Origin: an uncultured Dehalococcoidia bacterium
GTDB lineage: Bacteria > Chloroflexota > Dehalococcoidia > Lucifugimonadales > UBA3495
Direction: 5' to 3'
Length of the DNA: 64,000 nucleotides
Assembly (NCBI GenBank): GCA_951813535.1
Contig: OX638345.1
Span: 943,029-1,007,028 of the forward strand
The notes beneath the pieces were generated by a model, which was given only the letters and a program-made list of their open reading frames with translations, was not told the DNA's origin and ran no database searches. Positions 5,713-43,912 of this stretch are shown one piece after another. Numbering within the stretch: position 1 is the first letter of the stretch; each line of letters starts with the position of its first letter. The position numbers and the translations under genes are program-made.

Positions 5713-5732
5713 AGTGGAGTCCTGAGAGGTGA

Positions 5733-9673: not shown

Positions 9674-9807
9674 CGCTGCACCCTCAAAATAGAAGTGCTG
9701 CAATGGTCGCCTCAGTGGCGCCCAGGTGGTCACAGACCTTGGCGAACTGGTCTATAGTTCGCGGCGATTTTTGGGATTACTGGTACATAGTTCTTGGCGT
9801 TTTACAA

Positions 9808-10825: not shown

Positions 10826-10997
10826 CCGTTGGGTGCTCCTCGTTTCGGGCTGGTTTCGTGTGTCAGAAACCATTATCCCCGAAGCGCGGGAGCACTTTTT
10901 CATCCCCTCACCACGGCGCTGCACTCATCCTTTCGGTGGATTGGGGCTAAGACCGCACAGTCCAAACCAGGGTCGACGACCAACAGCTCCCGACTCC

Positions 10998-14774: not shown

Positions 14775-14964
14775 ACTCGTCTTCCTCGTGTTCAATTCTC
14801 GGCAACCGAACTTGGGGATTTGGAAGTCGTGCACAGCACGTTGGCAATTCGTGCCGGTCCAAGGGATGTTCTGACAATCCTGTCTTTTCGCCGTCCTCGG
14901 ATGGGACGAGAAACGCTTCGGTGGCACCATCCTATTACCGCATACAGGCGATGTCAAAAGCGCC

Positions 14965-16679
14965 GCGTTAGCCCGAATCCACCGAAGGGATGCGGTAGGG
15001 CTGGTCAGACGAGGTATGAAAGGTGAAGGGAAGGGCTGGCAGGGCGTTGGTCCGGACGGATTGGGAGGGGCGCTGAGTGTGTCAGCGACGCGAAGGGGAT
15101 TTTGACGGGCCACAGGGTCGGCGACGGCCGAGATCAGCGGGCAGATTGCGGCAGGAGACACTCTGGGTCGGCCCGGCGCAGTCCCGCGAGGCGATTGGGT
15201 AATGGGTGGAAGGATCAGGCGCGAATCAGGAAGGGAGCGGCAGGGCGCGCAGTCTGGAAAGGGCTCTGCCGAACTGGTTTTGCCAGGGCCAGCCCTGGGG
15301 GAGATGCAAAGTGAGGCGGCGGGCCTTGCGGGTGAGGCGTCCGGCCAGGGAGAAGAAGCGTCGCCGGAGGGTCTTGGTGGTCATCACCGGCTCGCCCAGG
15401 CCGATGCGCGTGGTCCAGCGGGCGAGATTGTGCGCGATGACCTGGACGGCCAGCCAGGCGGCGTTGGCGGGAAAGCGTCCCGATGGCAGGTGGTTGAGCC
15501 CCACGCCGTACTTGAGGTCGCGGATGGCGTTCTCGATCTCAGCGTGGCGGCGATGGTCGGCCTCCAGGTCCAGGGTGTCCCCGTCTCGGTCGGTGATGAA
15601 GGCGTGATAGCTGTAGCCGGCAAGCAGCGCAAGTTGGGAGCCGGGCGTGGGCTGCACCCTTCGTACAATGAGACGCACCGCCACGGCATCAGGCTCATGC
15701 TGGAAAGGAACGTAGGTTGTCTCGGCCACGTCGGCGGCGCCCTCCATCCAGTACGGGATGGGCGTCCACTCCGCCTCGGGTATGGCTTCGATGATGCTGC
15801 GCACGTTCGGGTGCTGTCGGGCGGTGATGGAGAAGCGGACCTTCGCCTTGCGACAGGCGGCGACGATGTCGTGGGTGTAGAAGCCGCTGTCGGCCCGCAT
15901 GGTGAGTGGACCGGTGGCACCGGCGTGGCGCGCTCGGCTCACCGTCTCGCGCAGGAAGTGGGCGGCGCCCCGGGCCGTGTTGGCCCGTCCCTTGCGCAGC
16001 CGTGCCATCAGCACCTCTCCGGTGCCCGCGGCGACGGCGATGAGCGGGTGATAGCCCCGCTGGCCGGCATAGTTGTGGCGCTGTGCGCCCTCCTTGGCAA
16101 GACCATAGGTCTCGCAGACCGTGGAGTCCAGGTCGATGGTCAACGGATCATCGCCAGGTCCGGCCCCAGCGGCCCAGGCTCGGGCCAGCGACTCCCGGCT
16201 CACCCGATCCAGTTGCCGAACATGGCCCCATCGGAAACTCCTCAGGAACGTACCCAACGTGGACGGCGCCTTCACGGTACAGCCCAGCGCCTGCTCGGTT
16301 CCTCCAGCCCGCAGCACGTCGGCATCGTCGATGCAGTCGCCGCCGGCCAGCGCCGACGCCACCAGGGTCAGCAGCTTGTCTCCCCCATTGGCCCGACCCG
16401 GCGCGTCTCCCAAGTCGACGTGGTGGTCCACCAGCTGGCCCAGTCCCAGATGATGGGCCAGAGTGACCGGCAGCAACAATCCGGCATTGGCCACCAAGCG
16501 GTGGTCATCGAAGGCGATTTTGATGCGGTCGGGGTCGTTGCGTGATAGCATCCGTTGGGTGCTCCTCGTTTCGGGCTGGTTTCGTGTGTCAGAAACCATT
16601 ATCCCCGAAGCGCGGGAGCACTTTCTCATCCCCTCACCACGACGCCACACTCACCCTTTCGGTGGATTGGGGCTAAGAC
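14965..16679 (-). mobile_element. IS1380-family element, copy 2 (intact)
   Basis: The same terminal sequences as copy 1 bound this copy (TTAGCCCGAATCCACCGAA inward from 14968, TTAGCCCCAATCCACCGAA inward from 16676 on the minus strand). It lies in the same orientation, 4 kb from copy 1, with the DUF499 gene between them. It cut an unknown gene whose end survives at 16680-17029. No target duplication is visible, so one boundary may have been remodelled. Confidence 0.88.
15226..16551 (-). CDS. IS1380-family transposase
   Basis: This is a 441-aa DDE transposase. The start ATG at 16551 has GAGGAG about 10 nt upstream. LTIDLDSTVCETYG and LTMRADSGFYTHDIV carry the first two acidic residues, and the C-terminal part has the NAIRDLKYGVGLNHLPSGRF stretch with the YREK-like end. 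Length is normal and there are no lesions. It is the probable source of activity for both IS1380 copies. Confidence 0.93.
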   Translation of the reverse strand: MLSRNDPDRIKIAFDDHRLVANAGLLLPVTLAHHLGLGQLVDHHVDLGDAPGRANGGDKLLTLVASALAGGDCIDDADVLRAGGTEQALGCTVKAPSTLGTFLRSFRWGHVRQLDRVSRESLARAWAAGAGPGDDPLTIDLDSTVCETYGLAKEGAQRHNYAGQRGYHPLIAVAAGTGEVLMARLRKGRANTARGAAHFLRETVSRARHAGATGPLTMRADSGFYTHDIVAACRKAKVRFSITARQHPNVRSIIEAIPEAEWTPIPYWMEGAADVAETTYVPFQHEPDAVAVRLIVRRVQPTPGSQLALLAGYSYHAFITDRDGDTLDLEADHRRHAEIENAIRDLKYGVGLNHLPSGRFPANAAWLAVQVIAHNLARWTTRIGLGEPVMTTKTLRRRFFSLAGRLTRKARRLTLHLPQGWPWQNQFGRALSRLRALPLPS

Positions 16680-17029
16680 GTCCAGATCCCCCCGACGCTC
16701 CCTACGACACCCGCGACGTCCGCGAGTTCCTCACCAACGGCGGCCTCTACCACCGGCGCATCAGCGACACCTTCCTCATCGCATACAACTTCCGGTTCCA
16801 CATCGACGCCCACAACCGCATCGGTGCCCAGGGCGTCGTCCACCCCGCCATCCAACGCCGCGACGATCACCACACCGATAAATCGGTCGTCCTCTCCTGG
16901 GCCAACGTCATCATCTCCCCCGTCGACCCCGATGCCGACCAGGCCTTCAGGTTTTACATCAGGGTCCACCACATGGACCGGCTGCCCCCCAGGCGCTGCG
17001 GCTTCCGCCAGACCGCCGACCAGGTCTGA
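16680..17029 (+). pseudogene. C-terminal fragment of an unknown protein, cut by IS1380
   Basis: A frame continuous from the IS end encodes about 115 residues (PPDAPYDTRDVREFLTNGG onward, ending ..QTADQV). Third-position GC and a sensible amino-acid mix suggest it was coding. No start or ribosome-binding site belongs to it, because the 5' part is gone. The family was not recognised. Confidence 0.45.
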
Positions 17030-17314
17030 CGCAGTTCCATCGCCCAGGACCTTGACCAACCCAAAGGCAGGGCGCCTGCCCAGTCGCCCAATACCCAGCC
17101 GTCCATTGCAGCTTCCGATTCCTCCGCAGGTCGAAGATCACCACCGGAGACCCTCTCCTGGATTCTCTCCCTTTCCTCTCACCCCAATTTCCCCGCGGTC
17201 CACACCGTCCCGCGCACCAGGCATCACCGCCACGACATGCCGATTTTCACCCCTCGTTTTCTCCACCATCGCAATCACCGATCGGTCCACGACCAACCAC
17301 CTTTCTAGCCCCAA

Positions 17315-17590
17315 CTCTGGACACTTGACCCTGTAAATTACATTTACACGCTTTATGCCTAAACAAACAGCGTTTGCTTAACAACCCCCACCCCCCAAGC
17401 GACACGCCAGAATCGGGGTTTTTTAAGATCGACAACTTTGTAAAACCGTTTGCCCGCATAGCCCTACTCAAGATCGCTTCCCACGCCGGCAAATACATTC
17501 CCACATCCAAGCGTCATTTCCGGCGCTTATTGCACATCTTTGCAGAAATGGTTTTACATTTCTTCTGTAGAGCACCGCCAAGCCTTGCTC
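17315..17590 (+). repeat. 276-bp direct repeat, copy 1
   Basis: This shares its beginning (CTCTGGACACTTGACC), an inverted repeat TGTAAAT-TAC-ATTTACA (17332-17348), a C-rich block, AACTTTGTAAAACCGTTTGC, a TTGCACATCTTTGCA block and its end (CACCGCCAAGCCTTGCTC) with 22693-22968. Both copies are exactly 276 bp. Copy 2 ends 38 bp before the replication-initiator gene, so the element is probably replication or promoter DNA. Copy 1 has no such gene after it. Confidence 0.8.
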
Positions 17591-18584
17591 GAAACGCGTT
17601 TTGGAGCCCTCAGCGACCACCCAACAGCCTCCGTGACGAGCGCTGTCAGGATCCGGATTCATCGCCCCTGGTCCTGATGGTCGGGATCGGAATCCGTGGC
17701 CAGCACCTCATGACCAAGGCAGTTGGATGCATTCTTTTTGTAGTTGAGCCAGGGCCCTATGGGACCGCTCCATTGCGAGCCGGCAATCAACGGCCGCAGA
17801 GCCTAACAACGAGCTTCGCCACTCTGACCACATCCTAAACCCAGTCTCCCCACACCGCGCAATCGGCGAACCCAGACCATAGCCGCCAGTAGCCGGCCCA
17901 GTGCCCAACCGGACAGCCAGGCTGGGACCCGCATCGGCCAACAACCTCAGGCTGACCCCTTCCCAGGAGCATCGGCCCGGCCCGGACCGTACAGCCAGAC
18001 CGCCCAGCGATGCCTGAAACCGTGTCCGTCGGCGTTGACGCTGCGAATGTTGCGTGAGCGCGCGCTTACATGTCGGCGGGAGGACACCCTGCGGCTTGGC
18101 GCGGTCGATGTGGCTATCGACCCGCATCCTCCTCTTGCCGAGGCCCGGATCAAGAAGTTCGGCCGCGGCCGCTAGTGGGTTGGGTTGGACGGTCAGGACG
18201 AGGCAGCGCCAGGCTGCCTGGTTCGACGTGGAGCTTGACCAAATTCCGGTGCAGACATAGCGGGTGACCTCCATGCCGGCGGTTTGCTTCGCTGACACCG
18301 AGACCGATGCCCGCATAGATGGCGGCGCTCACCGCAGCAGCGTGACCCTGATACGAGAATCGCAGAGGTACACCCGGCGCCTGGAGGACATCGCCGCAGC
18401 CGATCCGCCGATCAACCTTCCGTACACACGCCATGCCCTGGAGGAACCGCATGGCCTCACCAACATAGACGCCGCGCCCCGCAGCTGCCCTGACCTGGTC
18501 CGCTTCGCGCCGCTCGCGCCAGCCATTTCAACATCGCCAACAACGTCAACAACAATGTCATCCGACATCAAGGAGCATTCCAAC
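17591..18584. other. About 1 kb without a confident gene
   Basis: Frames exist on both strands but none has a good start or a known family. A short plus-strand frame at about 18031-18174 (MLRERALTCRREDTLRLGAV, ending in KFGRGR) could be a gene scrap. The frame of the following NERD gene is open back to about 18264, so an N-terminal extension cannot be excluded, but the ribosome-binding site points to 18585. Confidence 0.4.
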
Positions 18585-19445
18585 ATGAGCATCACGATCC
18601 ATCCCAGCCCGCTGCCCGAAGAGCGGCGCAACGACCCCAGGCGCCGCGCCGAGATGTCGGTGCTGGACCACCTGGCCAACAGCCACCTGCAGGGCACCGC
18701 AATCTACGAATGGAAAGCCGGCGCCGACACGCAGGAGGTGGACATCCAGCTGTGGGTGGAACATCTGGGCCGTTTTGCCATCCAGGTCAAGGGCGGCCAA
18801 TACGTCATCCAGAACCACGACTGGCGCCTCGTCGCGCCGGACGGGTCCCTGGAAGAACGGCCCTCACCGGTGGTCCAGACCTGGGACGGCGCCCTGTCCG
18901 TCCACGACGTGCTGGAATCCGTGCTGGATTTCTACATCTACACCATCCCGGTGCTGATCTTCCCCGACATGGACCGGGATCCCCAGATCGAAGCCCTGGC
19001 CAGAGTGAAGGGCGTGCACCTGGTGTGCCGCGGCGAGGACCCGAGCGTCCGGCTGGAACAGATAGCGGCAACCCAGGTCGTCCGTCACCCGCCGACCGGG
19101 GCCCACATCGAGAACGAGGTCCACGCCATGCTGTACCGGGAGCCGCTGTCTCCGTATCCGTCCGCCCGGCGGGGATCTCCTGAGCCCGGGGCATCCGGCG
19201 TTCCCTCCCAGATGGAGATGGGCGCCGCCTCCGTGGTGATCCACAACTACGGTCCCCTGATCCTGAACTTCAACTCCACGGAGGACCTGCCGGCCATCAT
19301 CGCGTCGCTGTCGCCGACGTCGCCCGCCAATCCGTGCCAGCACTCGTCGACGGAGACGATGCCGGCCCGGGAGCCCTCAGCGCCCTTTGGCGAAACGGGC
19401 GCGCCGCACCAGCTTCCGCATCCGCCCACCGCAGAGCGGGACTGA
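18585..19445 (+). CDS. NERD-domain nuclease-like protein
   Basis: The ATG at 18585 has AAGGAG 8 nt upstream and gives 286 aa. Residues 25-75 show a nuclease-related (NERD) pattern: SVLDHLANSHLQGTAIYEWKAG, then EVDIQLWVEHLGRFAIQVKGG, in which the acidic residue and the Gln-Val-Lys-Gly strand correspond to the PD-(D/E)XK-like core. The C-terminal third is Pro/Ser-rich and probably flexible. A UvrD-like helicase follows after 97 nt on the same strand. NERD domains are often fused or linked to helicases in phage defence (for example Nhi) and on plasmids, so the two probably act together. Confidence 0.7.
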   Translation: MSITIHPSPLPEERRNDPRRRAEMSVLDHLANSHLQGTAIYEWKAGADTQEVDIQLWVEHLGRFAIQVKGGQYVIQNHDWRLVAPDGSLEERPSPVVQTWDGALSVHDVLESVLDFYIYTIPVLIFPDMDRDPQIEALARVKGVHLVCRGEDPSVRLEQIAATQVVRHPPTGAHIENEVHAMLYREPLSPYPSARRGSPEPGASGVPSQMEMGAASVVIHNYGPLILNFNSTEDLPAIIASLSPTSPANPCQHSSTETMPAREPSAPFGETGAPHQLPHPPTAERD

Positions 19446-19542
19446 CGGCGGCCCGCCGCAAGCGCGATCGCGCCAACGGGCGCCCTCTGCTCGCTCGCCC
19501 AGGCAACTCGTCGTAGCGTTCTGCAACATCCCGACCGCCGAA

Positions 19543-21303
19543 ATGGAACCACAGCCAATGGTCAGTCCCATCATCAGCCGACTGCACCCCGAACTAGATC
19601 TCCAGCAGCTGGAGGTCATCGCCCACGGCGACGGTCCGCTGCAGGTCGTCGCCGGTCCCGGTTCCGGCAAGACCACCTGCATCGCCGACCGGGCCGCCAA
19701 CCTGGTCCTCACGGACCGGGCCAAGCCCCACGAACTGGCGCTCTGCACCTTCACCAGGGAGGCGGCCCGGGAGATGCGCAACCGGTTCACCGCCACGCTG
19801 CGGGCCTCCGGACACTCCGGCGACCTGTCCCGGGTCATCGTGTCCACCATCCACAGCCTGTGCCACCGACTGCTCACTCAGCACGGAAACGCCATCGGGC
19901 TCAGGCCCGGTTATCGGCTCCTGAACACGGCCGACCAGCTGGACCTCATGGAGACCCACTACCATGATATCTTCGGGGCTGACCATGCCGTCCTTGCCCG
20001 GGGGAACGACCGGTGGAGCGATCCGGAGCGCCCGGTGGACGAGGCGCGCCGCTACTTTGACCGCATCTCCGACGACCTGATCGATCACCGCCGGCTGACC
20101 GCGTCGGGCCTGCCCTTCCCGGCGGCCCTGGGCCGGTGTCATCAACGCTACGGTCAGCTCCTCTGGGAACGACGCGCCGTGGACTTCGCGCACCTGCAGA
20201 CCTGGGCGTTGGCTTTGCTGGAAAACCCACAGGTGCGCGCCGACGCCAGCGCCCGCATGCGCCACCTGCTGGTGGACGAGTACCAGGACACCAGCTTCGT
20301 CCAGGAGCGACTGCTCCGGCGCCTGGCGTCGGCCCACGGCAACATCTGCGTGGTGGGCGACGACGACCAGGCCATCTACCGCTTCCGCGGCGCACGGGTG
20401 GACAACATGACGCGGTTTCGGGCCCGTCTTCCCGGTTGCCGATTGCTGTACCTCACCAACAACTACCGCTCCCACCGGCGCATCGTGGCCGCGTTCAACG
20501 ACTGGATGGCCTCGGGCGACTGGAGCAATCCAGCGGGCGTCGATTACCGCTTCGACAAGACCATCGCCCCCAGGGCCGCCCATGCCAACGACGATCATCC
20601 CGCGGTGGTGTCCATTGTGGGGACCGACCGGCGGGACGAGGCCGGCCAGTTGGCGGCGATGCTGGTGTCGCTCCGGGGGCGCGGGTTTATCACCGACTAC
20701 AACCAGGCCGCCGTCCTGCTGCCCAGCGTGAAATGGAGGCACTCCCAGCCCTACGTGGACGCCTTCCGCAGCGCCGGCATACCGGTGCACCTCGTCCGCG
20801 GCCGCGACGGACCGGATGATGACGAAACGGTGTCCGGAAAGCAGCAGCCGCGGGACCATGTGCTGCTCACCACCATCCACCAGGCCAAGGGCCGGGAGTG
20901 GCCGGTGGTGGCGGTGGGTCTGCCGCGCCGGTTCCGGCAGTGGCCGGACCGCCTGGATCGGGACCTGGGGCAATTTCGCCCCGAACCCGAAGCCGAACCT
21001 CCGGACCGGGTCGACGGATTCGACCTCAGGCGCCAGTATTACGTGGCCTTCTCCCGGGCCCGGCGTCTCCTGGCGCTCACCGCCTCCCATCCCGACCCGG
21101 CGTTCCTGCCGGCGCTGGCCGGCGCGCCCGTCTGGACCGATGTGAGCCAGGACCGATTTCCTGGAAACGCCGCTCGTCCCCAGCCTGTTCTAGCCAGCGG
21201 CGGGCACAACACCGACATCACCCACCTGGGCCCATTGGGGCTGGCGGTTGCGGCCGGTGGCGGCGTCCGCATCATCCTCGGCGGCGACGTGTCGTGCCTT
21301 TGA
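19543..21303 (+). CDS. UvrD/PcrA-type superfamily 1 helicase
   Basis: This protein has about 586 aa from the ATG at 19543 (a second ATG is at 19558; neither has a strong ribosome-binding site). Helicase motifs are in order: VVAGPGSGKTTCI (motif I, near residue 35), LCTFTREAAREMRNR (Ia), LLVDEYQDTS (II, near 245), VVGDDDQAIYRFRGA (III), NYRSHRRIV (IV), TTIHQAKGREWPVV (V, near 443) and YYVAFSRARRLL (VI, near 499). The protein is shorter than cellular UvrD (about 720 aa), as in plasmid or defence-associated versions. The last 60 residues are low complexity. Its partner is the NERD gene upstream. Confidence 0.9.
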   Translation: MEPQPMVSPIISRLHPELDLQQLEVIAHGDGPLQVVAGPGSGKTTCIADRAANLVLTDRAKPHELALCTFTREAAREMRNRFTATLRASGHSGDLSRVIVSTIHSLCHRLLTQHGNAIGLRPGYRLLNTADQLDLMETHYHDIFGADHAVLARGNDRWSDPERPVDEARRYFDRISDDLIDHRRLTASGLPFPAALGRCHQRYGQLLWERRAVDFAHLQTWALALLENPQVRADASARMRHLLVDEYQDTSFVQERLLRRLASAHGNICVVGDDDQAIYRFRGARVDNMTRFRARLPGCRLLYLTNNYRSHRRIVAAFNDWMASGDWSNPAGVDYRFDKTIAPRAAHANDDHPAVVSIVGTDRRDEAGQLAAMLVSLRGRGFITDYNQAAVLLPSVKWRHSQPYVDAFRSAGIPVHLVRGRDGPDDDETVSGKQQPRDHVLLTTIHQAKGREWPVVAVGLPRRFRQWPDRLDRDLGQFRPEPEAEPPDRVDGFDLRRQYYVAFSRARRLLALTASHPDPAFLPALAGAPVWTDVSQDRFPGNAARPQPVLASGGHNTDITHLGPLGLAVAAGGGVRIILGGDVSCL

Positions 21304-21399
21304 GGCGCGGTGGTTATTTTGATCCAGCCCGCAATCCTGCCCCTGCTCATTTCTGCAGCACCAGTCAGCGGCAGTCGTTGATGAACAACCTGGGACGCC

Positions 21400-22452
21400 G
21401 TGGACGCCAGGATCGCGCGGGCCAGGCTCAAGTTGCGCCGCCTCAGGACCGACATCGTCGAACTCTGCTCCGAACTCGCCCGCCGCATCGTGCCCGAGGA
21501 GCGTGAGGACCACCACCATTGGGTCTACCGCGGCACCGAGCCCAGAGCATCCCGGGACTGATCCAGCCTGGCGTAGCACCCGCGCCAGGAGCCCAGGCCC
21601 ATCGACATCAGCCCCGGCTCGATCCCCGTCGCCGTCGACAGCACCCCGCCCCGGGCCACCGCCTGCTCCATCGCCCACGCCCTTTTTAGCAAGCCCGCTT
21701 ACCGCATGGTCCCCGTCGATCCCATCTTCACCCCCCAGGACCAGCGCATCACCGTATCCGCATCCACCGCCACCGTCTCGGTGGACGGACACCCGCCCTT
21801 CTCGTTCAAGGTCTCCGACCAGGATTCCATCGAACTCCCGGACTACGCCCGTCACTCTTCACCCAACGCCGCCCAGGCGTCGGCCATCACTTTCCAGCTC
21901 CTGGTATCCCAGCCCGGCAAACCACGCTATACCCTGGATATCTCCGCCGATTACCTCCTCACCGGCGCCATCGATGACGAGCAGATCTTCATCACCCCGG
22001 CCTTCACTCTCAACGAAGCCAGCCTCACCGACATCCTGTTCGACGGCTACTGGACCAGCAACGACCCCGACTACCCGGACGACCCCGCCGCCCAGTACTT
22101 CTACGAACACGTCCACGCCATCGCAACCGGCATCACCGCCGGCCCTCACCAGGAACTCATCACCCGGCTGAATTACGCCACCGGCCATCTCCACGACCCG
22201 TACCCCGACCTGCCCGGCCCAGTCTTCTCCCACAATGACCGCTTCATCTTCGTGGCCGTCCCCACGTCCGGTTCCACCAGCCGCGATGCTCTCAACGCCC
22301 TCGCCTACCTCTACGCAGCCCAGGTCCTCCCCCACCTCGATCAAACCAAAACCGGCAAGGCCGCCGCAGAGGCAGCAGCGGCCCTGCAGCACGACCCCGA
22401 GATCTTCCGCATCTTCGCCGACGCCCTAACCTCCTCCAGCGACGCCGGATAA
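21400..22452 (+). pseudogene. Unknown protein gene broken by two in-frame stops
   Basis: One reading frame from a GTG at 21400 to a stop at 22452 (about 350 codons) is interrupted only by TGA at 21559 and TAG at about 21577. Before the stops it encodes a charged helix (ARIARARLKLRRLRTDIVEL); after them a 248-residue stretch can start at ATG 21706. Composition stays coding-like through the stops (HPRQEPRPIDISPGSIPVAV), which suggests nonsense decay of one gene rather than two genes. No family was recognised; the C-terminal part is acidic and rich in Ala, Asp and Pro. The terminator at 22496 ends it. Confidence 0.5.
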
Positions 22453-22495
22453 AACGTCAGCGCACCTCCCTTGCGGCCAAGCCCCGCGGAGCGAC

Positions 22496-22517
22496 ACCCG
22501 TCTGCGGGTTTTTCTTT
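22496..22517 (+). terminator. Rho-independent terminator candidate
   Basis: Hairpin ACCCG-TCTG-CGGGT followed by TTTTCTTT, 44 bp after the stop of the 21400-22452 gene. Confidence 0.6.
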
Positions 22518-22692
22518 CACCGCACACGACTTTTATCAGCAGTCGCGCCGACTGCATCTGCGCCTCCGTCACCCTCTTTCCTCGTTCCCTCCTCATCCCT
22601 AACCGTGACCCCACGACATGCCCCTGGCCTTGCCACACGACATGACCGACATCATTTCACCTACCCCCGATACCGGCCAACCGAGGCCCTCG

Positions 22693-22968
22693 CTCTGGAC
22701 ACTTGACCCTGTAAATTACATTTACACGCTTTATGCCTAAATAAGTAGCATTCCCTTAACAACCCCCACCCCCCAAGCGACGCGCCAGAATCGGAGTTTT
22801 TAAGATCGGCAACTTTGTAAAACCGTTTGCCCGCACGACCATGCTCAGCAACGCCTCAAACGCCGGCAAATACATTCCCATTTTTCCCGAATGACGACCC
22901 CGGCCTATTGCACATCTTTGCACAATTCCGGTTACAATTCTTCTGAATACCACCGCCAAGCCTTGCTC
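22693..22968 (+). repeat. 276-bp direct repeat, copy 2, upstream of the replication initiator gene
   Basis: Same organisation and exact length as 17315-17590. The inverted repeat TGTAAAT-TAC-ATTTACA is at 22710-22726 and a GTAAAACCG block follows. It ends 38 bp before the ATG of the initiator-like gene. Promoter, repressor-site or replication-control DNA is the likeliest role. The minus strand of both copies can be read as similar short peptides, but the mismatch pattern does not clearly favour coding. Confidence 0.8.
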
Positions 22969-23006
22969 AAAAGCCCAAATCGACGGGCCACACCCATGAT
23001 TTTCAC

Positions 23007-24146
23007 ATGGACGCAAACCCCCGCCGGCTCAACGGCAGACAGGCCAAGGCCTTAACAACGCTATCTCGCCTCTCTGCGATCGCGCCCGCAGATCAGTCGC
23101 CATTCACCGTCAAACCCGGGGTCCTCGCCGAGCACCTCGGCGCCCACAGGCGCACCGTCTCACGCCGGCTCGACACCCTGCGCGACGCCAGCATCATCGA
23201 ATTCCAGCGCCGGCGCCACGGCTACACCATCCCCTCTGCTGCCCCTGGCAACCGCCATCCTCGACGGCGACGCCGACCCCCAGAGCGACTCCAGCTACCG
23301 CGCTCCAAGCGTGCACCCGGCTCAGACCGCGCTCCCTACAACACCGAGGGCATATCTGCCTTCCACAGCAAGCTTGCCGAGCTCGCCGACGACGACAACT
23401 GCGTCCGCATCAAGCAGCCCGAGCTCGCCCAAAAGTGCCAGGCCAGCGTCCGCTCCGTCCGCCGTTAGGCTGACCGCCTCAGCGCCGACGGCGCCATCAC
23501 CGTCAGCCGCGGCCCACCACGTGGTCTATTACCTCACGCCCTGGTGGCCCACCGCGGACCAAACCCCACTGGACCCAGTACGGCCAGCGGATGTCTGCCC
23601 ACAGCACCAGCTCGCGTCTCCCCTCTCCGGAATCGTCACCCACACCGGCGCCCGCGTCATCGAGTGCCCGGCCGAGACCGCCGGCATTCCATGCTCCTGG
23701 ACCCACGTCGAAGGCAACGGAACCATCATCGAGCACGGCGGCCGAAAACCCCTGCCCCATGAACTTCTCGACCTGATACGTTCCCACGACCAGCAGACGC
23801 CCGACAGCGTTCCCGCATGCGTAAACGGCGCCCTCACCACCGCCCAGACCAGCCTCGACCTCTACGACCCCGAGGACCCGGCCCAGATCTGGCGCCGCGT
23901 ACTCCTCGAGCTCGGCGCCGAAATGCCTTCCTCTACATCCGCACCCACTTTCTCCAGGCGACCCCCGTCTCCTGGGACAACCCCATCCTGACCATCCAGG
24001 CCCAGCACCATTCAACAATCGCCCTGGCCGATGACCCCATGTACGCCGAGCCCCTCAACGATTCCCTGACCCGCGTCATCGGACACCCATCGACCGTGAC
24101 CCTCACGCCTCCCCTGGAACCACCCAACGACGAGATTTCCGGGTAA
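23007..24146 (+). pseudogene. Plasmid-type replication initiator remnant (HTH plus DnaA-N-like end)
   Basis: From ATG 23007 the first 150 codons contain two helix-turn-helix segments: VLAEHLGAHRRTVSRRLDTL (about residues 37-56) and ELAQKCQASVRSVRR followed, after an in-frame TAG at 23466, by ADRLSADGAITVSR. A frameshift near 23525 leads into a second frame that ends with DPAQIWRRVLLELGAEMP. A further shift near 23925 gives a segment resembling the DnaA N-terminal domain (LYIRTHFLQATPV, then an ILTIQAQHHSTIAL strand and a VIGHPSTVTL strand). A DNA-binding initiator with a helicase-loading end is inferred. An iteron field follows at once, supporting replication. The gene is dead. Confidence 0.55.
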
Positions 24147-24264
24147 ACCGGTCCGGCCCGCCGAAAATCCCCAAATCCGCTTCCGGGATTATCGGAAAAT
24201 CCCGCATTTATTTTTCCGGGGTCACAGTCTTTCCCGCCATTTATCGCCTCCGGATCCCCCCGGA

Positions 24265-24732
24265 GTGTTCGGCCAAATGGCCCGTTTCCCCCTCGCCTGA
24301 TCGGCCATTTCGGACAGAATATGCCCCTGTGTTCGGCCATTTTGGACACATTAAGCCACTTTTTTGCCCAGTGTTCGGCCAGATTTCTGTCCACTTCGCC
24401 ACCCGGATCCTGGCCCCTTAAACCCTCATTTAATGTCGTTTTTGGCTGATCACTCTGTCCTTTTTGGCCGAACACTGGTGACATTTGGCCGAACACTTTT
24501 GTCCAAATGGCCGAACACTCCTTAGCCCTTTTTCAGATCTTCAGTTCGGTTTCGCTCGGGCCATTCGCCTCCCCAGGCCAAACCTTCCCGCGAACTCCCG
24601 TTCGTTTAACCCCATTTTTGTCCATTTGGCCGAACTCACGCGAAAAACGCCCCTCTCTTCTCTCTTAACGGTTTAAATATTTAAACGTTAACCGGGAGAG
24701 AGAGCGATCAGTTTTGTCCATCTTGGCCGAAC
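24265..24732 (+). other. Iteron cluster, probable plasmid replication origin
   Basis: Nine copies of a roughly 20-bp word with consensus TGTCCAAATGGCCGAACAC occur in a gene-free, AT-richer stretch. Four read as the complement (24265, 24301, 24329, 24371) and five read directly (24456, 24481, 24500, 24619, 24715). Between the last two is a perfect 16-bp palindrome GTTTAAATATTTAAAC (24671-24686), a good candidate for the unwinding element. The position between the initiator remnant and a DnaC-like gene fits an iteron-controlled origin. Confidence 0.7.
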
Positions 24733-24924
24733 GGACAACTTTTTTCCCCTGCCGCGACCGGGAAAAATCTCCAAAAAAGATGGAATACCCGTTCGCCCAA
24801 CCTTGACACCGTGCGCCCGGCAACCTAACCTGCTAACCGACCACACCGCGCTGGCCTAGCGATCCGGCACCCCCAACAGACGGGCACCTCCCGCTCGTCG
24901 CCTTCAGACCCACAGGGAGTACAG

Positions 24925-25640
24925 CACCGATTTCACAATTCATCCAGCTGCCACACCGTCCAACACTCGACTACCAACCTCAACCCCGCTACCAATGCCA
25001 TATCTGCTAGGACACCGGTCAGATCTGGGATAAATACACCATCAAACCCTGCGATTGCAGCCCCGCTCCCTCGCTACCGATCATCAACCCCATACCGGGA
25101 TACCGTGACCGCACCTTCGACACCTGTTGCCTCTCGGAGCCGCCCCTCGCCCACCGCGACTCATACCAGCAAGCGTTGCGGCTGGCCATCATCTGGGCCC
25201 AGAATCCGTCTCCGTTGCTAACCATCGCCGGCCCGCCCGGCACTGGCAAGACCAGCACCGCAGCCTGCATTGCCAATTATTACGCGGCCTCCGGCCTCCT
25301 TCATTCCTGGGCGGAACCGGGGAACCTGGCGCCCAACGGACCCGACGTGGCCACCGCCCGCAACGCGCCGCTCCTCACCATCGACGATTTGCCCAACGCG
25401 CAGATACTCTCCCCACAGATCTCGGAGAACATCCTGCGCGTCATCGAAGGCCGCCGGGCTCTCAACCTGCCCACCGTGGTGACCCTGCGCAACCACAGCG
25501 TTGCCTACGATCCGGCGTTTCGCGCCAAGCCCGCTTCCGCCAATCTCCGCCTCACCTTGGCCTTGGCAGAGGATAACGAAGACGAGCCATTCCACCTCAC
25601 CGATGATGCGTCTCCCTGGCACGGTCTCATCCCCCAACCC
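24925..25640 (+). pseudogene. DnaC/DnaI-like helicase loader, broken
   Basis: One frame contains YQCHIC, then TAG (about 25009), then DTGQIWDKYTIKPCDC: a Cys4 zinc-binding knuckle as in DnaI/DnaC-type loaders, with one nonsense codon in it. Downstream (25176 on) is the AAA+ core: LLTIAGPPGTGKTSTAACIA (Walker A), APLLTIDDLPNA (Walker B) and PTVVTLRNHS (sensor I). The 3' end runs into a serine-recombinase fragment near 25640. Such loaders bring the replicative helicase to plasmid or phage origins, which fits the adjacent iterons. Confidence 0.65.
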
Positions 25641-25644
25641 ACGT

Positions 25645-25890
25645 GTCAAGGGCGGCGGAAAACTGGCCCTCGTCCGCACGCTCTACGACCCGGACGATCC
25701 CATGGGCAAGATGTTCTTCAATATCCTCGCCACCTTCGCCGAGTTCGAGGCCGATCTCATCCGCCTGCGCACCCGCGAGGGCATGGCCATCACCCGCGCC
25801 AGGGGAAACTGCGCGACAAGCAGCCCAAATTGTCCGACCGTCAGCAGCGGGAACTCTGCCGCATGCACGTCACCGGTGAGTATTCCATCA
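25645..25890 (+). pseudogene. Serine recombinase (resolvase) fragment
   Basis: Two frames together give DDPMGKMFFNILATFAEFEA, then DLIRLRTREGMAITRARG, then KLRDKQPKLSDRQQRELCRM and TGEYSI. This is the central helix of the catalytic domain and the start of the DNA-binding part of resolvases. A frameshift lies near 25800. The N-terminal catalytic serine and the HTH end are missing. Confidence 0.75.
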
Positions 25891-25923
25891 TACTTTTTAC
25901 GAACATTCCTACTCAGGATCCAG

Positions 25924-26400
25924 CTATTTCAACCCTCCGTTCCCCGTTTTTGCCCACTCCGCAAAGGTCATAACCTCGACGTCATCGTCGTCCTCTTGCA
26001 GCCAGCATTTCGGCGACACCGCCGTCGTTCCATCGATCCGTGCGACTCCATCTGGAGCCGCAACCACCAACATCTCCCGCAGCTCCTTCGCCCCACGCTT
26101 ATCCAAGCCCGAAGCGACGCACCGCACTACGTAGTACATCTGCCGACAGTGTTCGACCACGAAGGAGCCGGACCTCACTTCGAGTGATCCGTTTGACAGC
26201 TCCCCCAAACGCTGAAACACGCCTGTTTTTGTGAAGCCGAAATATCGACATCCGTCCTCGTATAGGACCTCGAACACCGTCAGCCCGTCGCCCTCACCAG
26301 GCAGCAGACGCCCGCCGTTTTCTCGCCACCAGTCCGTGGCGACCAGACCGATATCCACGGTTTTCGCTGTCAGGGACTCGTCCATACCCCCATTTTGCAT
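25924..26400 (-). CDS. Hypothetical protein, 158 aa
   Basis: An acidic alpha/beta protein with a DGCRYFGFTKTGVFQRLGEL segment and an acidic C-terminal run of four Asp (QEDDDDVEVM). No family was recognised and there is no signal peptide or membrane segment. A second ATG six codons in follows a G-rich stretch and may be the true start. It lies 104 bp downstream of the integrase remnant on the same strand, so it may be passenger cargo of that element. Confidence 0.5.
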   Translation of the reverse strand: MQNGGMDESLTAKTVDIGLVATDWWRENGGRLLPGEGDGLTVFEVLYEDGCRYFGFTKTGVFQRLGELSNGSLEVRSGSFVVEHCRQMYYVVRCVASGLDKRGAKELREMLVVAAPDGVARIDGTTAVSPKCWLQEDDDDVEVMTFAEWAKTGNGGLK

Positions 26401-26504
26401 TCCGACCCTTCGCCCGGTTTACCGATAACGCGGGCAGCCTCTGGAAAACAAAACCCCCGCGCGCAACTGTGCGCAGGGCCACCGTCGAACGATGTCGACC
26501 CAAA

Positions 26505-27058
26505 TCACGGCACTGCTTCCATCCCGTAGTCGGTCCCGACGATCGGTAAGTAAATCCGGAGCGTAACCTGCACGTTCGCGTGCCCCAGCCAGGCGCTGAC
26601 CACGTTAAACGGACCTTCCCCACCATCAGCCAGTGCCGCGCTGCGCTGTGGCGCAGACTATGCGCCCCAGGGCGCCGTTTCCCGGTCCCTGGCGATTCAT
26701 CAGCAAGGCCGCTGGCCACCACGGCGTCGGCAATGTGCCGCAAGACGGTCCGCATGCTGATCGCCACCACCTTGTCCCGCGGCGACCGGTTCGACGGCCA
26801 GTTGGTGAACAGCTGCACCAACTCCGGGTGCAGCCGCACCGTCCGCGGCTTCCGCGTCTTCGACTGGCGAACCAGCAGCGTCGCCGGATCCCCGGCGTAG
26901 TTCAAGTCACGCCACTCGAGCTCCAGGACCTCCGACACCCGCAGGCCGGTGCGCCACATGATCAGCGCCGCGGTGCGCGCCTGGTGCCGGTTCCGGGACG
27001 CCAACTCGTCCAGCAGACGCTGGACCTGATCGGCCGTCCAATAATGCGGAACATCCAT
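26505..27058 (-). pseudogene. XerC/D-like tyrosine recombinase, frameshifted
   Basis: From ATG 27058 the frame holds the catalytic domain only: WRTGLRVSEVLELEW (catalytic Arg) and GAHSLRHSAARHWLM (HxxR). A missing base near 26605 then breaks the frame. In the next frame the text resumes as FNVVSAWLGHANVQVTLRIY with the conserved His and the nucleophile Tyr, ending MEAVP at 26505. All five catalytic residues survive across the two frames. The core-binding N-terminal domain is absent. Confidence 0.8.
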
Positions 27059-27148
27059 GGTGGCAGACTACACTAGACGAACTCTGCCAGACAGGGGCCA
27101 GCCGTCACCAACTTCCCCGAACGGCGTTAACAGCCAACGGGCCAGAAT

Positions 27149-27175
27149 TGGCAGAGTTTGATCCAAACTCTGCCA
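27149..27175. promoter_or_regulatory. Perfect 12-bp inverted repeat upstream of the integrase remnant
   Basis: TGGCAGAGTTTG-ATC-CAAACTCTGCCA. A further half-site, GAACTCTGCCA, occurs at about 27079-27089, 20 bp from the integrase start. It could be a recombinase core/arm site or an operator. Confidence 0.55.
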
Positions 27176-27811
27176 TCACATCATTCTCACCAGCGAATAC
27201 CGGTGGCCAAAGCGGCGTTAGCGTACGATTCTGCCCCTTACCGGAGTCGACCAGAAGGTCGCGGCGTGGGACTCCAGGACCTGTCCCAGCTCCTCCTGCG
27301 TCTCATCGACCAGCTCCGTCACCTGCTCTGCCACCAAGCATGGACGACAAGATTGCAAACGAACCTTTCTGTTCGTGGTAAACGCACGTCCCTCGCGCCG
27401 TTCCAATCCCTGACCACGCCGGTTCAAACCGGTGAATGGCAATCCAGGCCCTCAATTTCAGCCACCGGCGGCCCCAATCGTTCCGGCCATGGGGTCGCTC
27501 CGGCAAGAAGACCAGGTCGGGTCGAGCCCAGGGTCGCGCGTTACCGCCAAGACTGTGCGTAACAAACGGCAACGCACGGAACGGTCATTGCGAAGCGTGT
27601 TGTAGAATGTTAGAAATATCAGTCGATAATCGGGCGTGGCGTGGTTACCAGACGGAAACTCACCGAGACATCGGGCAGGGTGAGCATGGCTGATTCTTCC
27701 GTGAGAAGTGGGGTCAGACCAGATTACCCCGCCTTTATAATTTTCTAACAATGCGCAAAGTCTAGACCAGAGCCCAGCCGTAGGCGATCCCGACACCATC
27801 AAGTAACAACC
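27176..27811. other. Gene-free interval before the secreted-protein operon
   Basis: No gene is supported in these 636 bp. A TATAAT box lies at 27736-27741, about 70 bp before the first secreted-protein gene, with only a weak -35 candidate. An inverted pair TGTTAGAAAT (about 27607) and ATTTTCTAACA (about 27740) brackets the -10 region and the 120 bp before it and could be an operator. A weak minus-strand frame near 27218-27330 reads as a helix but has no support. Confidence 0.4.
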
Positions 27812-29863
27812 ATGCGAATCAAAACAGTCATCAGAAGCCTAGTCGGCAGACGGCACCAGTCAATTCTCGCCGCCATGCTGCTCACCGCCACCATCGCATG
27901 GTCCAACAGCTTCGTCATCCCCACCGCACCGGCACAGCACGACGGAGACAGCCCCAAACTGGCCACGAGCATCACAGACGGCAACGTCACACTGAACTGG
28001 TCACTCCAGCAAACCGGAAAGGCGACGCCCACCGGCTACCGGATCTTCCGCCGCCTGCCGGCACGCGACCCGGAAGGCCAGTACGAGACCATCGTCGCCG
28101 ACACTGGCAGCACGACCACCGTCTTCGTCGACCACTGCGCCAACCAAGCCGGCACCACGTACCAATACCAAGTCGCCGTCCTCCATGACGGCAACACCAG
28201 CCCAAGGTCGAACCCTTCACAGATAGCCCTCAAGAGCGACCACCAGGCGCCCAACCCCAGTTCGTGCAGCGCAACCATCGTTGGGCCATACATCGTGCCA
28301 GACGGCGTCCGGATCTTCGACGCTTACGGCGACACCCAGGAGACACCTACCAAGCACACGGCAGACGACACCTACGGGCACGGTGAACTCATCGTCGTCG
28401 CCGTCGAGTTCAACGAGCCAGTCGACACCAGCGCCGCCACCCTCAAGCTCAACATCGGCCCTCACGTCGAAACCCTGACGCCAGTCGATCAAGATGGCAA
28501 CGTCGCCTACTTCGCCACCACCGTCGCAGATGAACACATCGACAACGACGGTGTACACATCGGCGACTACACCGAGACCTTTGGGCACAACCCCACCGGC
28601 GCAATTTACAGCAAAGCGACCTCACGCCGCACGAACCTCTACCACCCCGCCCTGGGCACCCTGGCCAATCACAAGGTGAAAGGCTACGCCCAACGGCCAC
28701 GGATCACCGAAGTACGCATACTCCCACCGGCACACCCGGACCACGGGTATCTGCGCGGCGAGACCATCCATATCCAAGTCCACTTCAGCCAGCCGGTAGT
28801 GGTCACAGACCCAGTCCACGCCACCCTCCGCATGGGCGCCGACGCCACGGCGACCCCACGCACCGCCGCCTACGAACGCGGCACCACCACCGCTACGCTG
28901 GGCTTCAGCTACCTGGTCACCGACGCCGACCAAGACGCCGACGGAATCACCGTCAGCATCCACGACCAAGGCCACATCGTCGGCAAAACCGCCGGTCTCC
29001 TCAGCGACATGAGTAACCACCCGGCACCGCTGGAAGAAAGCCTAAAGGTCAACGGCAACCTGGTAAACGTACCCGAGGTCATGGCGGAAGCAGCATGGAA
29101 CTGGCAATCCCAGTCACCAGGCAGCGACACCGTCGAAATCGACTTCACGATCCGCGCTGACCCCGGCCACTTCTCCGAAGACGACGCCCTCGTCGTCGAC
29201 CTCGGCTGGAGCAACATGAACGCCTACCCGCTTGCCTTCGGCCTCAGCACCGACGTTGACCAGCCGGGCACCGACGGCTCACAAGGCAAAGGCGTGTTCT
29301 TCAGCATGTGGGATACCCACGAGCACGAACGACACGTCGAAGCCGCCGCCGGCGGCTGGGCCGAAACCGACACCATCACCCTGCACGGCATCGACCAAAC
29401 TCGCGTCTCCGCCGTCATGCCCTACGAGTGGACCACCGGAGACTACTCGGCACGTCTCACCCGCGACGGCCCGGCCACGGACCACGGCCGCTACTACAGC
29501 CTCTGGATCACCGACCAAGCCACTAATGTCGAGACCAAGGTCGGCTCCATCCTCTTCCCCGACGAGTTCGGTGACCCAGCCATCCTGGCCACAACCAAAT
29601 TCTCCACTAGGGTCATCCTCACCGGAGACGAGGTCACCAACATCGAGGCAATCCCCCAGCTGCAGATCAGCCTGAACCCGCCCCAAGTGTCGGGACACTC
29701 GCACCCGCATACGGTCGGAACCGCCTACTCACCAGTGCATCAGGTCATCACCAACTCCAACGTCGAGTACGACCCGCAGCAGCGGGAAATCATCATCACG
29801 GCCGGTGGAGACACCCAAAGAACCACGGCCGACCTCCAAGTCCTCGACCTGCAAGCCCAGTGA
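27812..29863 (+). CDS. Secreted FnIII-containing protein, 683 aa
   Basis: The N-terminus has a basic head (MRIKTVIRSLVGRRHQS), a hydrophobic core (ILAAMLLTATIAW) and a cleavage-like PTAPAQ near residue 42, a typical Sec signal. Residues 48-140 form a fibronectin type III domain (GNVTLNWSLQQTG, TGYRIFRRL, TTYQYQVAVLHDG). The remaining 500 residues are beta-rich with Ig-like or cadherin-like wording (GELIVVAVEFNEPV, DADQDADGITV) and share blocks with the next gene (IVPDGVR, TETFGHNP, FGLSTDVDQP, GSQGKGVFF). Probably an exported surface or matrix protein. The downstream gene begins 48 bp later. Confidence 0.75.
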   Translation: MRIKTVIRSLVGRRHQSILAAMLLTATIAWSNSFVIPTAPAQHDGDSPKLATSITDGNVTLNWSLQQTGKATPTGYRIFRRLPARDPEGQYETIVADTGSTTTVFVDHCANQAGTTYQYQVAVLHDGNTSPRSNPSQIALKSDHQAPNPSSCSATIVGPYIVPDGVRIFDAYGDTQETPTKHTADDTYGHGELIVVAVEFNEPVDTSAATLKLNIGPHVETLTPVDQDGNVAYFATTVADEHIDNDGVHIGDYTETFGHNPTGAIYSKATSRRTNLYHPALGTLANHKVKGYAQRPRITEVRILPPAHPDHGYLRGETIHIQVHFSQPVVVTDPVHATLRMGADATATPRTAAYERGTTTATLGFSYLVTDADQDADGITVSIHDQGHIVGKTAGLLSDMSNHPAPLEESLKVNGNLVNVPEVMAEAAWNWQSQSPGSDTVEIDFTIRADPGHFSEDDALVVDLGWSNMNAYPLAFGLSTDVDQPGTDGSQGKGVFFSMWDTHEHERHVEAAAGGWAETDTITLHGIDQTRVSAVMPYEWTTGDYSARLTRDGPATDHGRYYSLWITDQATNVETKVGSILFPDEFGDPAILATTKFSTRVILTGDEVTNIEAIPQLQISLNPPQVSGHSHPHTVGTAYSPVHQVITNSNVEYDPQQREIIITAGGDTQRTTADLQVLDLQAQ

Positions 29864-29910
29864 AACCGGCCACGCTCACGGCCACCCAGTCGCTGCCAAA
29901 GAGAAACAAG

Positions 29911-31785
29911 ATGACCACAGCAACGTCCAACACACACCCGCTGACGAGACGGAACGCCGTCGCCAAGGCGATGGCCGCAGCTCTCATAATCGCAGCGCTG
30001 GCCACCACCGCGGCACTGGCGCCTCAGACGGCGCTCGCCAAATCCGGACCAGCTCCCCAGACCACAAAGCTCCAAGCCGCAAACGCCGCACCAACACCGG
30101 GCACACAGCCAGCCATAGGCAACGACGCATGCGGGCCCACCGGCCCAGGTCCCTACATCGTCCCAGACGGCGTGCGCATGTACGAAGCGTACGGACACCC
30201 CGGCGGCTGGAAGGCACGCATCTTCGGCGACGACACCCACGGCAACGGCGAGCTCATGGTCGTCACCGTCGAGTTCAACGAACCCGTCATCGTCAGCGAA
30301 GCCACCTTCAAGATCCAAATCGGCGACGTCAAGCGAACCTTCGCGCCCATGGCCCTCCAGGACAACATCGTTTACTTCGGCGCACTCGTCGAAAGCTCCA
30401 ACCTCGACACCGACGGCATCTACATCGGCAACCACACCGAGACCTTCGGCCACAACCCGCCCGGCGCCATCTACAGCGAGGAAACCGGCCGCGCCGCCAA
30501 CCTCGAGCACCCGCGCATCGGCGTCCTGCCCAACCACAAGGTAGACGGCCGCCACACCAGAGCCAAGGTAACCGGAGTCTGGCTCGCCTCCGCACCGCAG
30601 ACCGGAAACGAATACCGGTCTGGCGAAACAATCGAGGTCGCCGTCGCCGTCAGCCAAAACGCCGCCGTCAGAGGCATCGTCCACGCCGGAGTACGCGTGG
30701 ACACCAACGACGGACACAACATCCGCGACGCAATCTACTCCCGAGGCAGCGGCACCAACCGGCTCAGATTCCTGTACCGCGTCCAGCCAGACGACCTCGA
30801 CCAGAACGGCGTTGCGCTCCCCGACAACCTCCTGGCCAAGCAGAACGACCTCCCCCTGGGCAACAACGGCGGCGGTCACATAGTCGGGCCAGGCGGGTTG
30901 CTCGTGGATACCGCCAGCCGAGCGAAGCAACCCGACTCCGGACACCAGGTGGACGGCAGCATCGCAACGGTGCCCGAAATCATGGCCGACGTCAGATGGC
31001 AATGGCAACAGGATGTCCCCGACAGCGAGACCCTGAGCATCGACTTTGACGTCACCGAGGACCCGGGACACTTCTCGGAGACCGAATCCCTGGTGGCCGC
31101 CATCGGCGTGACCAACATCAGCGGCCAGCAAGTCGCCTTCGGCCTCAGCACCGATGTTGACCAGCCTGACACTGACGGCTCACAGGGCAAGGGCGTCTTC
31201 TTCACCAAGTGGGGCCCCGACGACACCGAACAGAACTCAGCGCAGCCCAGCGACAACGGCTGGACCCAGCACGGCGCCAACCAGCTCGTCAACTCCGAAG
31301 ACGACGCCACCAGCGTCGTCGTGCCCTACGACTGGGGAGCCGGCGAATACTCCCTCGAGCTCCGACACGACGGCGCGGCCAAAACTGACGGCCGGTACTA
31401 CGGCGTGTGGATCACCAACAAGGCCACCAGCGTCGAGACCAAGGCCGGCTCCCTGTTCTTCGCGGCGGAAGGGGGCAACCCCCAAATCGCCGCCCGCGCC
31501 GGACTGCACTCACGAATCATGTTCACCAGCAGCAGCGATGAAACACCCATCAGCAGCATGCCGACCATGGAAGTACGCCTCAGCCGACCCGACGCATCAG
31601 TGACCGCAGACTACGACGAAGAATCTCCCGTTGCCATCAACATCAGGTACGCGACCATACACGGCCACCTGTTGAACTCCGACGTCGTCTACCTGCCCAA
31701 CGACGACCAGGTGAAGATCACCGCCGGCGGCAGAACCGTGCGGATTACACCAAACCGCACGACGCGGCAACTCACCAACCAATAG
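29911..31785 (+). CDS. Secreted paralogue of the preceding protein, no FnIII domain
   Basis: The ATG at 29911 (AGAGA upstream) is preferred over a GTG at 29860 that overlaps the previous stop but lacks a ribosome-binding site. The protein has 624 aa with a Sec signal: Thr-Arg-Arg head, AMAAALIIAALATTAALA core, cut after ALA-K-like residues. The body aligns with residues 150-680 of the upstream protein: YIVPDGVRMYEAYG, GELMVVTVEFNEPV, TETFGHNPPGAIYS, VAFGLSTDVDQPDTDG. The pair therefore arose by tandem duplication, with the FnIII domain gained or lost. Function unknown; a surface role is inferred. Confidence 0.75.
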   Translation: MTTATSNTHPLTRRNAVAKAMAAALIIAALATTAALAPQTALAKSGPAPQTTKLQAANAAPTPGTQPAIGNDACGPTGPGPYIVPDGVRMYEAYGHPGGWKARIFGDDTHGNGELMVVTVEFNEPVIVSEATFKIQIGDVKRTFAPMALQDNIVYFGALVESSNLDTDGIYIGNHTETFGHNPPGAIYSEETGRAANLEHPRIGVLPNHKVDGRHTRAKVTGVWLASAPQTGNEYRSGETIEVAVAVSQNAAVRGIVHAGVRVDTNDGHNIRDAIYSRGSGTNRLRFLYRVQPDDLDQNGVALPDNLLAKQNDLPLGNNGGGHIVGPGGLLVDTASRAKQPDSGHQVDGSIATVPEIMADVRWQWQQDVPDSETLSIDFDVTEDPGHFSETESLVAAIGVTNISGQQVAFGLSTDVDQPDTDGSQGKGVFFTKWGPDDTEQNSAQPSDNGWTQHGANQLVNSEDDATSVVVPYDWGAGEYSLELRHDGAAKTDGRYYGVWITNKATSVETKAGSLFFAAEGGNPQIAARAGLHSRIMFTSSSDETPISSMPTMEVRLSRPDASVTADYDEESPVAINIRYATIHGHLLNSDVVYLPNDDQVKITAGGRTVRITPNRTTRQLTNQ

Positions 31786-31854
31786 CCAGCCCAAGCGGAC
31801 CGGCGGATCCAACCCCGATGGCAGCACGCCGCCGTGCAGCGGCGCGACAGAACC

Positions 31855-43887: not shown

Positions 43888-43912
43888 CGCTGCGGCGCCG
43901 GGAGGGCTTCCC

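Follow-up and report, generated by a model that had tools for sequence, protein, structure and literature searches.

A putative decayed plasmid-like replication module, with iterons and a DnaA-domain-I-like initiator tail, in a SAR202 chromosome

A broken initiator gene, an iteron array and a broken loader gene

The window, that is, the whole 64-kb stretch of DNA analysed here, corresponds to bases 943029-1007028 of a single-contig 4.38-Mb genome and holds the following features around the locus of interest.

17308-17594: leader of about 290 bp, copy 1, 83-91% identical to copy 2
19387-21303, plus strand: UvrD-type helicase (PF00580, 1.7e-63), in a flanking block common to a sister element
22686-22972, plus strand: leader of about 290 bp, copy 2, upstream of the initiator gene; 83-91% identical direct repeat
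23007-24146, plus strand: initiator pseudogene, with an in-frame TAG at 23466-23468 and at least two frame changes (three-frame translation, ORFs)
23103-23234, plus strand: winged helix 1 (HTH_Crp_2, 33.9 bits, cut-off 27)
23397-23516, plus strand: winged helix 2, the second HTH_Crp_2 stretch of the read-through protein; it crosses the TAG
23596-23697, plus strand: zinc-like motif CPxH...C...CS; the same motif class is found in the relatives L073 and L140 and in both L076 ORFs
23878-24101, plus strand: DnaA-domain-I-like domain, split by a frame change near 23922 and aligned with three relatives
24264-24381, minus strand: four reverse iterons (24266, 24298, 24330, 24372), spacings 32, 32 and 42
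24434-24452, plus strand: weaker sixth forward iteron, three mismatches
24456-24733, plus strand: five forward iterons (24465, 24486, 24508, 24627, 24724), spacings 21, 22, 119 and 97
24653-24704: 52-bp inverted repeat around the AT palindrome, 81% self-complementary; candidate unwinding element
24671-24686: perfect 16-bp AT palindrome GTTTAAATATTTAAAC (GTTTAAAT/ATTTAAAC), 100% self-complementary
24935-25646, plus strand: DnaI/DnaC-like helicase loader pseudogene, with a Cys-rich start, a TAG at 25008-25010 and one AAA domain, then cut off; start uncertain
25672-25809, plus strand: serine resolvase fragment (PF00239, 37.1 bits), fused after the broken loader
26294-27058, minus strand: partial tyrosine integrase (PF00589, 66 bits), common to the sister element

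Because the initiator gene is broken, we read its domain order across frames joined in silico. In a search with 15 Pfam families at E ≤ 10, Rep_3 gave no match to the read-through protein, and residues 135-173, at winged helix 2, matched phrog_7498, a family of DnaD-like helicase loaders (1.4e-6). The CPxH...C...CS motif may bind zinc. Pfam DnaA_N gave no match to the tail at E ≤ 10, and with a four-sequence DnaA_N profile the tail ranked fifth, at 5.9 bits, and was not separated from shuffles. When the profile was built from 53 SAR202 DnaA_N domains together with four relatives (see below), the tail scored 21.5 bits (E 5.9e-5), above all 5000 same-residue shuffles; the only other window frame with E < 1 in this search was, by position, the same tail unjoined. 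The structure predicted for the first 153 residues of the window protein alone was too poor for use (mean pLDDT 60, pTM 0.23). The leader upstream of the gene contains the dyad TGTAAATTACATTTACA and occurs twice in the whole genome, both times inside the window.

Downstream of the initiator gene lies an array of iterons that is real and beyond chance. Allowing one mismatch at most, TGGCCGAACA occurs 18 times in the window, against 5.85 expected and with none of 100 shuffles reaching 18. Half of these copies (9 of 18) cluster at 24264-24733, four in reverse and then five in forward orientation. Positions 24250-24749 thus hold nine, compared with a mean of 0.046 in 500 bp and a maximum of two in 2000 dinucleotide shuffles, and every other 500 bp of the window holds two at most. 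Six of the ten exact copies of the 11-mer TGGCCGAACAC in the 4.38-Mb genome lie in the array, so that the iterons are not scattered genome-wide, a possibility that the initial annotation had raised against its own reading. Spacings of 32, 32, 42, 21 and 22 correspond to about 3, 3, 4, 2 and 2 helical turns. The outer half of the iteron, TGTCC, is less constant than the rest: the fixed-gap pattern TGTCCNNNTGG... was not clearly above chance (its count was reached by 7 of 100 shuffles), but the form with a gap one base longer was (0 of 100 shuffles).

The nine iterons span 468 bp beside the initiator gene and are thus the clustered repeats by which an iteron (theta) plasmid origin is recognized. 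The AT palindrome sits between the last two forward iterons (24627 and 24724), and the lowest-GC 30-mers of the 3.5 kb at 22500-26000 fall inside its 52-bp inverted repeat. This region supplies the AT-rich element of an iteron (theta) origin, its unwinding being a prediction. DnaA boxes are present in many, not all, such origins; none of the eight window matches to TTATCCACA, a box not derived from SAR202, falls within 22500-26000 (one mismatch at most).

The array was also sought elsewhere. DNA from 24150-24860 matched two of 247 order genomes, namely the genome itself and, over 32 bp, G014. The iteron pair pattern occurred in 51 viral-contig stretches and in five of 250 order genomes, one of them the genome itself, and none was accepted as the same array. 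Three of these matches were inspected, the others being screened for clusters only: that of L136 (G007) consists of repeats within coding sequence, that of L125 looks like repeats in coding DNA, and that of viral contig L112 (1260-1410) is a 25-bp tandem repeat, GGCCGAACACGGTT..., apparently intergenic, whose resemblance to the iterons looks fortuitous.

The gene behind the array matched phrog_50, a family of DnaC-like helicase loaders (1.2e-5), and had matches in 90 of the 99 genomes searched, its own included, and no relative in viral contigs. Its AAA domain and loader relatives make it, as judged from sequence, a loader of the DnaI/DnaC type. Other long ORFs of the window are open (e.g. 1427, 1387 and 1169 aa), which makes poor sequence quality an unlikely cause of the gene breaks. 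With initiator and loader both evidently pseudogenes, the module appears as a decayed copy within a 4.38-Mb chromosome, no longer a plasmid, and since both genes are broken it should be incapable of initiation in its present state and is most likely dead. Among the window ORFs scanned, we saw no ParA or ParB and, by Pfam, no capsid, terminase or portal protein. The window also lacks a tRNA as insertion site, no RNA family was found in 16000-27500 at E ≤ 1, and the ends of the element (att sites) were not found.

The initial annotation had described most of this layout, and its description held: nine iteron-like words in two opposed groups with a perfect AT palindrome, a neighbouring gene unlike Rep_3 with tandem HTH segments and a DnaA-domain-I-like end, and a helicase loader behind it. 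The in silico frame repair and profile search that it proposed recovered both HTH_Crp_2 stretches, and DnaA_N with the 53-plus-four profile, not with Pfam. Its limits, 23007-24732, rightly take in the initiator and the iterons; they leave out the loader and the flanking element, and the two genes turned out to be pseudogenes.

Relatives in the same SAR202 genus and a sister element

We found no intact sequence-level homologue of the window initiator, nor the intact homologue beside the same iterons that the initial annotation had suggested looking for, in plasmids, phages (tblastn, 50,697 phage records) or viral contigs; searches of 99 relatives and of 294 class genomes each returned the genome itself and one weak match only. 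Matches in G041 (E 8e-4, 38% over 71 residues) and G174 (E 7e-4, 28%, three internal stops) were not taken as initiator homologues.

When related genomes were searched with DnaA_N and the loader, four more loci emerged, all in two genomes that belong to the same SAR202 (Chloroflexota) genus: L073, L074/L140 and L075/L141 (G001), and L076 (the window's own genome). G001 is SAR202 cluster bacterium bin87 (MPNC01), described in PMC5649159 as a bin of the SAR202 clade from the Aplysina aerophoba sponge microbiome. The DnaA-I part is present in all four relatives, with a Pfam DnaA_N score over the cut-off in L076 and under it in the other three, and the winged helix in three, none being seen in L075/L141. 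A profile of the relatives' C-terminal halves had matches in 212 of 247 order genomes. Among the matches listed, near-full-length ones lay at four places only (three in G001, one in G000), with a C-terminal part in G001; the others covered little beyond the DnaA_N end, as expected of chromosomal DnaA.

L073 parallels the window in gene order: its protein has the winged helix, DnaA_N and the Cys motif, and a tandem AAA loader gene starts 115 bp downstream. The window's read-through protein matched it by blastp from winged helix 2 through the DnaA-I tail (E 8e-5 in a five-protein database). The L073 protein had no match in plasmids and a single one in phages, over 75 residues of a Listeria phage record (E 1e-2). 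ParA-type genes lie about 0.9 to 1.1 kb from the L140 and L076 initiators. L076 splits these parts between two overlapping ORFs: the first, beginning with a DNA methylase, contains the winged helix, and the second contains the DnaA_N part. This region (L076:4571-9382) is a second wHTH/DnaA_N locus on the window's own chromosome, and also has an HNH gene. L075/L141 starts beside a transposase-like ORF, and L140 and L141 are near a sigma-factor-like ORF (all named by eye), making a regulatory role possible for some relatives. Overall, the homologues were not found to be unrelated to replication, as the initial annotation had allowed for; their settings are those of replication and partition, though several are near the sigma-factor-like gene.

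AlphaFold2 modelling of the protein of L139 (4200-5357), an intact bin87 relative on the same contig as L073, together with two relatives gave two usable domains only (overall mean pLDDT 46.8). Residues ~25-96 of the model match winged helices, and residues 202-286 match 4tps_D, domain I of B. subtilis DnaA (Z 12.2, rmsd 1.4, 83 aligned).

Origin-like DNA accompanies the relatives as well. In L073, L140, L141 and L076, GC-rich palindromic arms enclose 35-40 bp of DNA that is 60-86% AT; the structure is located right behind the gene in the first three and inside the methylase-HTH ORF in L076. Under a strict inverted-repeat rule, which found nothing in 281 kb of SAR202 loci used as background, the loci that score are L140 and L141, not L073, L076 or the window. 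An 11-bp period runs through the linker that joins winged helix and tail in L073, with lags 11, 22, 33 and 44 reached by none of 5000 codon shuffles. The period of L140 is weaker (of 5000 shuffles, lag 11 was reached by one, lag 22 by none and the best lag by 218), and the one clear repeat of L076 is 66 bp long. From these few cases one may speculate that a period of 11 bp goes with one winged helix (L073, partly L140) and one of about 21-22 bp with two (the window).

SAR202 chromosomes carry in a row a DnaB_C gene, a gene for a protein with DnaB_2, a DnaD/DnaB-type domain, and a tandem AAA loader gene. The helicase loader of the SAR202 order is about 465 aa long and has two AAA copies per chain (two stretches each in L015 and L073), with one AAA domain each in DnaC and DnaI. 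This description draws on L014, on L015, where the loader adjoins the DnaB_C and DnaB_2 genes, on L073:5476-6870 and on the chromosomal loader matches.

A sister element, L184 (contig C52 of G002), shows about 91% identity to window positions 16756-16986 and 17192-21564, 81.5% DNA identity to the integrase block 26507-27175, and no match to 22973-26506. Leader copy 1 (17308-17594) lies within the common block, and the UvrD-type helicase has a counterpart in G002 with 93% identity across its full length (638 of 638 residues). Between the common blocks, one ORF of L184 matches the PF03090 replicase (27.2 bits against a cut-off of 26) and is apparently interrupted by a stop. This ORF is at about the position of the window's origin and initiator, and the arrangement looks like one replication module in place of another, with the cautions that L184 is a 16.8-kb contig, that its integrase pieces are not in simple order and that the UvrD helicase has relatives in other settings too.

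The UvrD helicase recurs in three versions in G002 (93%, 67% and 66%) and more distantly in other SAR202 genomes. It is paired with a gene of unknown family (18264-21303), and the pair looks like portable cargo, perhaps for defence. Elsewhere in the window, 27812-36117, where GC and AT skew are strong, encodes a run of large proteins (683, 641 and 1427 aa), with FN3 in the first and third and repeated DNA common to the first two. At 43027-46115, VWA, PP2C-type phosphatase and kinase-like genes follow one another, and a single ORF at 48728-50767 combines a Helicase_C domain with leucine-rich repeats. AbiEii, DUF499, MmeI-type and KAP NTPase genes amid transposases give 4110-15161 and 56861-63378 a defence-rich appearance.

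Interpretation and alternatives

These features, read from sequence, probably represent the decayed replication module of a plasmid-like element integrated in the SAR202 chromosome, with initiator, iterons, palindrome, DnaA-I tail and loader in the roles proposed here. The plasmid type that the initial annotation had put forward survives in part: ParA and loader genes near relatives and the PF03090 sister element give a replicon-like setting, while what is left in the window is a decayed chromosomal copy. In the intact ancestor, the initiator would have used both of its winged helices to bind the iterons, adjacent copies lying on one face of the DNA helix, and the resulting complex would have melted the AT palindrome that separates the last two of them. 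The DnaA-domain-I module at the C end may then have recruited the host replicative helicase, either directly or via a DnaD-like protein of the host, and the loader encoded by the element itself would have placed the helicase on the single strand. We infer binding, unwinding and recruitment from known families. According to PMC4980987, iteron initiators bind repeats via winged helices and melt an AT-rich element where the helicase loads; according to PMC10201431, helicase recruitment by DnaA domain I is direct in E. coli and indirect, via DnaD binding, in B. subtilis. The proposed order of steps follows from this behaviour and from the DnaB_C - DnaB_2 - AAA run of SAR202 chromosomes.

The same initiator and loader might have belonged to an integrated prophage or phage satellite with an origin of the lambda O/P kind. 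An integrase is nearby, PHROG families of DnaD-like loaders and O-like replication-initiation proteins matched in the window protein and L073, and the origin-in-gene layout of L073 resembles that of lambda O. We nevertheless consider a phage origin unlikely, because the Pfam-scanned window ORFs include no capsid, terminase or portal protein, PHROG tail and head families matched only weakly, and to the FN3 proteins, tblastn found nothing in 50,697 phage records, and ParA lies near two relatives. Still less probable is that the winged-helix protein was a transcription regulator that controlled its neighbours from an operator array, the DnaA-like tail being an interaction domain unrelated to replication. 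Its helices are indeed of HTH_Crp_2 type, the leader of 290 bp occurs twice in the element and L140 and L141 are near the sigma-factor-like ORF (named by eye); however, the array is opposed, helically spaced and accompanied by an AT palindrome, a helicase loader is directly downstream, ParA is near relatives, and a class of plasmid replicases has the same domains.

That class, the DnaA-like replicases of Rhodobacterales, also raises the question of whether a true member of it moved into SAR202. The domain order, wHTH then DnaA_N, is the same, but hhalign of the SAR202 family against the Phaeobacter protein described below gave a probability of 2.1 (E 0.023) and the SAR202 DnaA_N profile scored that protein at 5.9 bits (E 4.3). 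Moreover, the Phaeobacter protein finds 289 plasmid records, whereas the window protein and L073 find none, and such a transfer seems very improbable.

Beyond the decayed plasmid-like module itself, we suggest tentatively, and with somewhat less than even confidence, that SAR202 elements have their own initiator class, with DnaA domain I as a helicase-recruiting tail, their own loader, an origin in or just behind the initiator gene and a repeat period tracking how many winged helices the protein has. The wHTH - DnaA-I plan would then have been used a second time, independently or on a far wider scale than in Rhodobacterales plasmids. In the literature searched we found no plasmid type of SAR202, a large uncultured group of Chloroflexota. 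If correct, DnaA domain I would be a reusable helicase-recruiting part for mobile replicons, and the plan would not be limited to Rhodobacteraceae, contrary to PMC6052148, where DnaA-like plasmids are stated to be "exclusively found" in that family. It would also provide a marker with which to look for intact replicons among the metagenomes of sponge symbionts, and such replicons might be developed into genetic tools for hosts not in culture.

Comparison with known systems

The initial annotation had suggested an undescribed replicon family, which goes too far, because plasmid replicases with a winged helix and a C-terminal DnaA_N are already known as the DnaA-like type of Rhodobacterales. Petersen et al. 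are said to have described this plasmid type in 2011. What is new here is that the hosts belong to another phylum, that a loader is paired with the initiator, that the winged helix is doubled and that one relative, L073, has an iteron-like array within its initiator gene.

Plasmid pPGA1_262 of Phaeobacter inhibens encodes WP_027246467.1, a "DnaA N-terminal domain-containing protein" of 227 aa that combines a winged helix (HTH_Crp_2, 20.0 bits, under the cut-off) and a C-terminal DnaA_N (29.2 bits, over the cut-off). We infer that it is the replicase of pPGA1_262 from these domains and from PMC4148982, which presents the 262-kb replicon of DSM 17395 as the equivalent of the DnaA-like-I replicon pGal_A255. 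Relatives of this protein were found in 289 of 72,556 plasmid records, with rhodobacterial names among the matches listed.

The SAR202 proteins resemble these replicases in having a winged helix on the N side and DnaA_N at the C end, as seen in the relatives and, by profile, in the window protein. The Phaeobacter gene itself is plasmid-borne. Across the record start of pPGA1_262 it has a ParB-family gene and a gene for an AAA-ATPase and, unlike the window initiator, it has no loader among the annotated neighbours in the stretches examined. The Rhodobacterales replicase also differs in having one winged helix, where the window protein has two, and in that the zinc-like motif was not found in the Phaeobacter protein; the window's host genus is that of SAR202 bin87, in Chloroflexota and not in Rhodobacteraceae. 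Because sequence comparison (hhalign; DnaA_N profile) gave no significant link between the SAR202 family and the Phaeobacter replicase that would point to common descent, we liken the window gene to the DnaA-like type and do not assign it to it.

With the iteron plasmids F (RepE), R6K, pPS10 and RK2, as described in PMC4980987, the window has in common repeats of about 17-22 bp, an AT-rich unwinding element and an initiator with two winged helices; unlike theirs, its initiator has no Rep_3 match and ends in a DnaA-I-like tail, and the element has its own loader gene. Phage lambda O/P likewise has an initiator gene followed by a helicase-loader gene, and the iteron-like array of L073 is inside the initiator gene; the window differs in having a DnaA-I-like tail instead of the O C-terminal domain, an AAA loader and no phage structural genes seen. 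Finally, the predicted fold of L139 residues 202-286 is like that of B. subtilis DnaA domain I (4tps), which in the SAR202 proteins would stand on the C side of a winged-helix protein without the AAA+ domain of DnaA.
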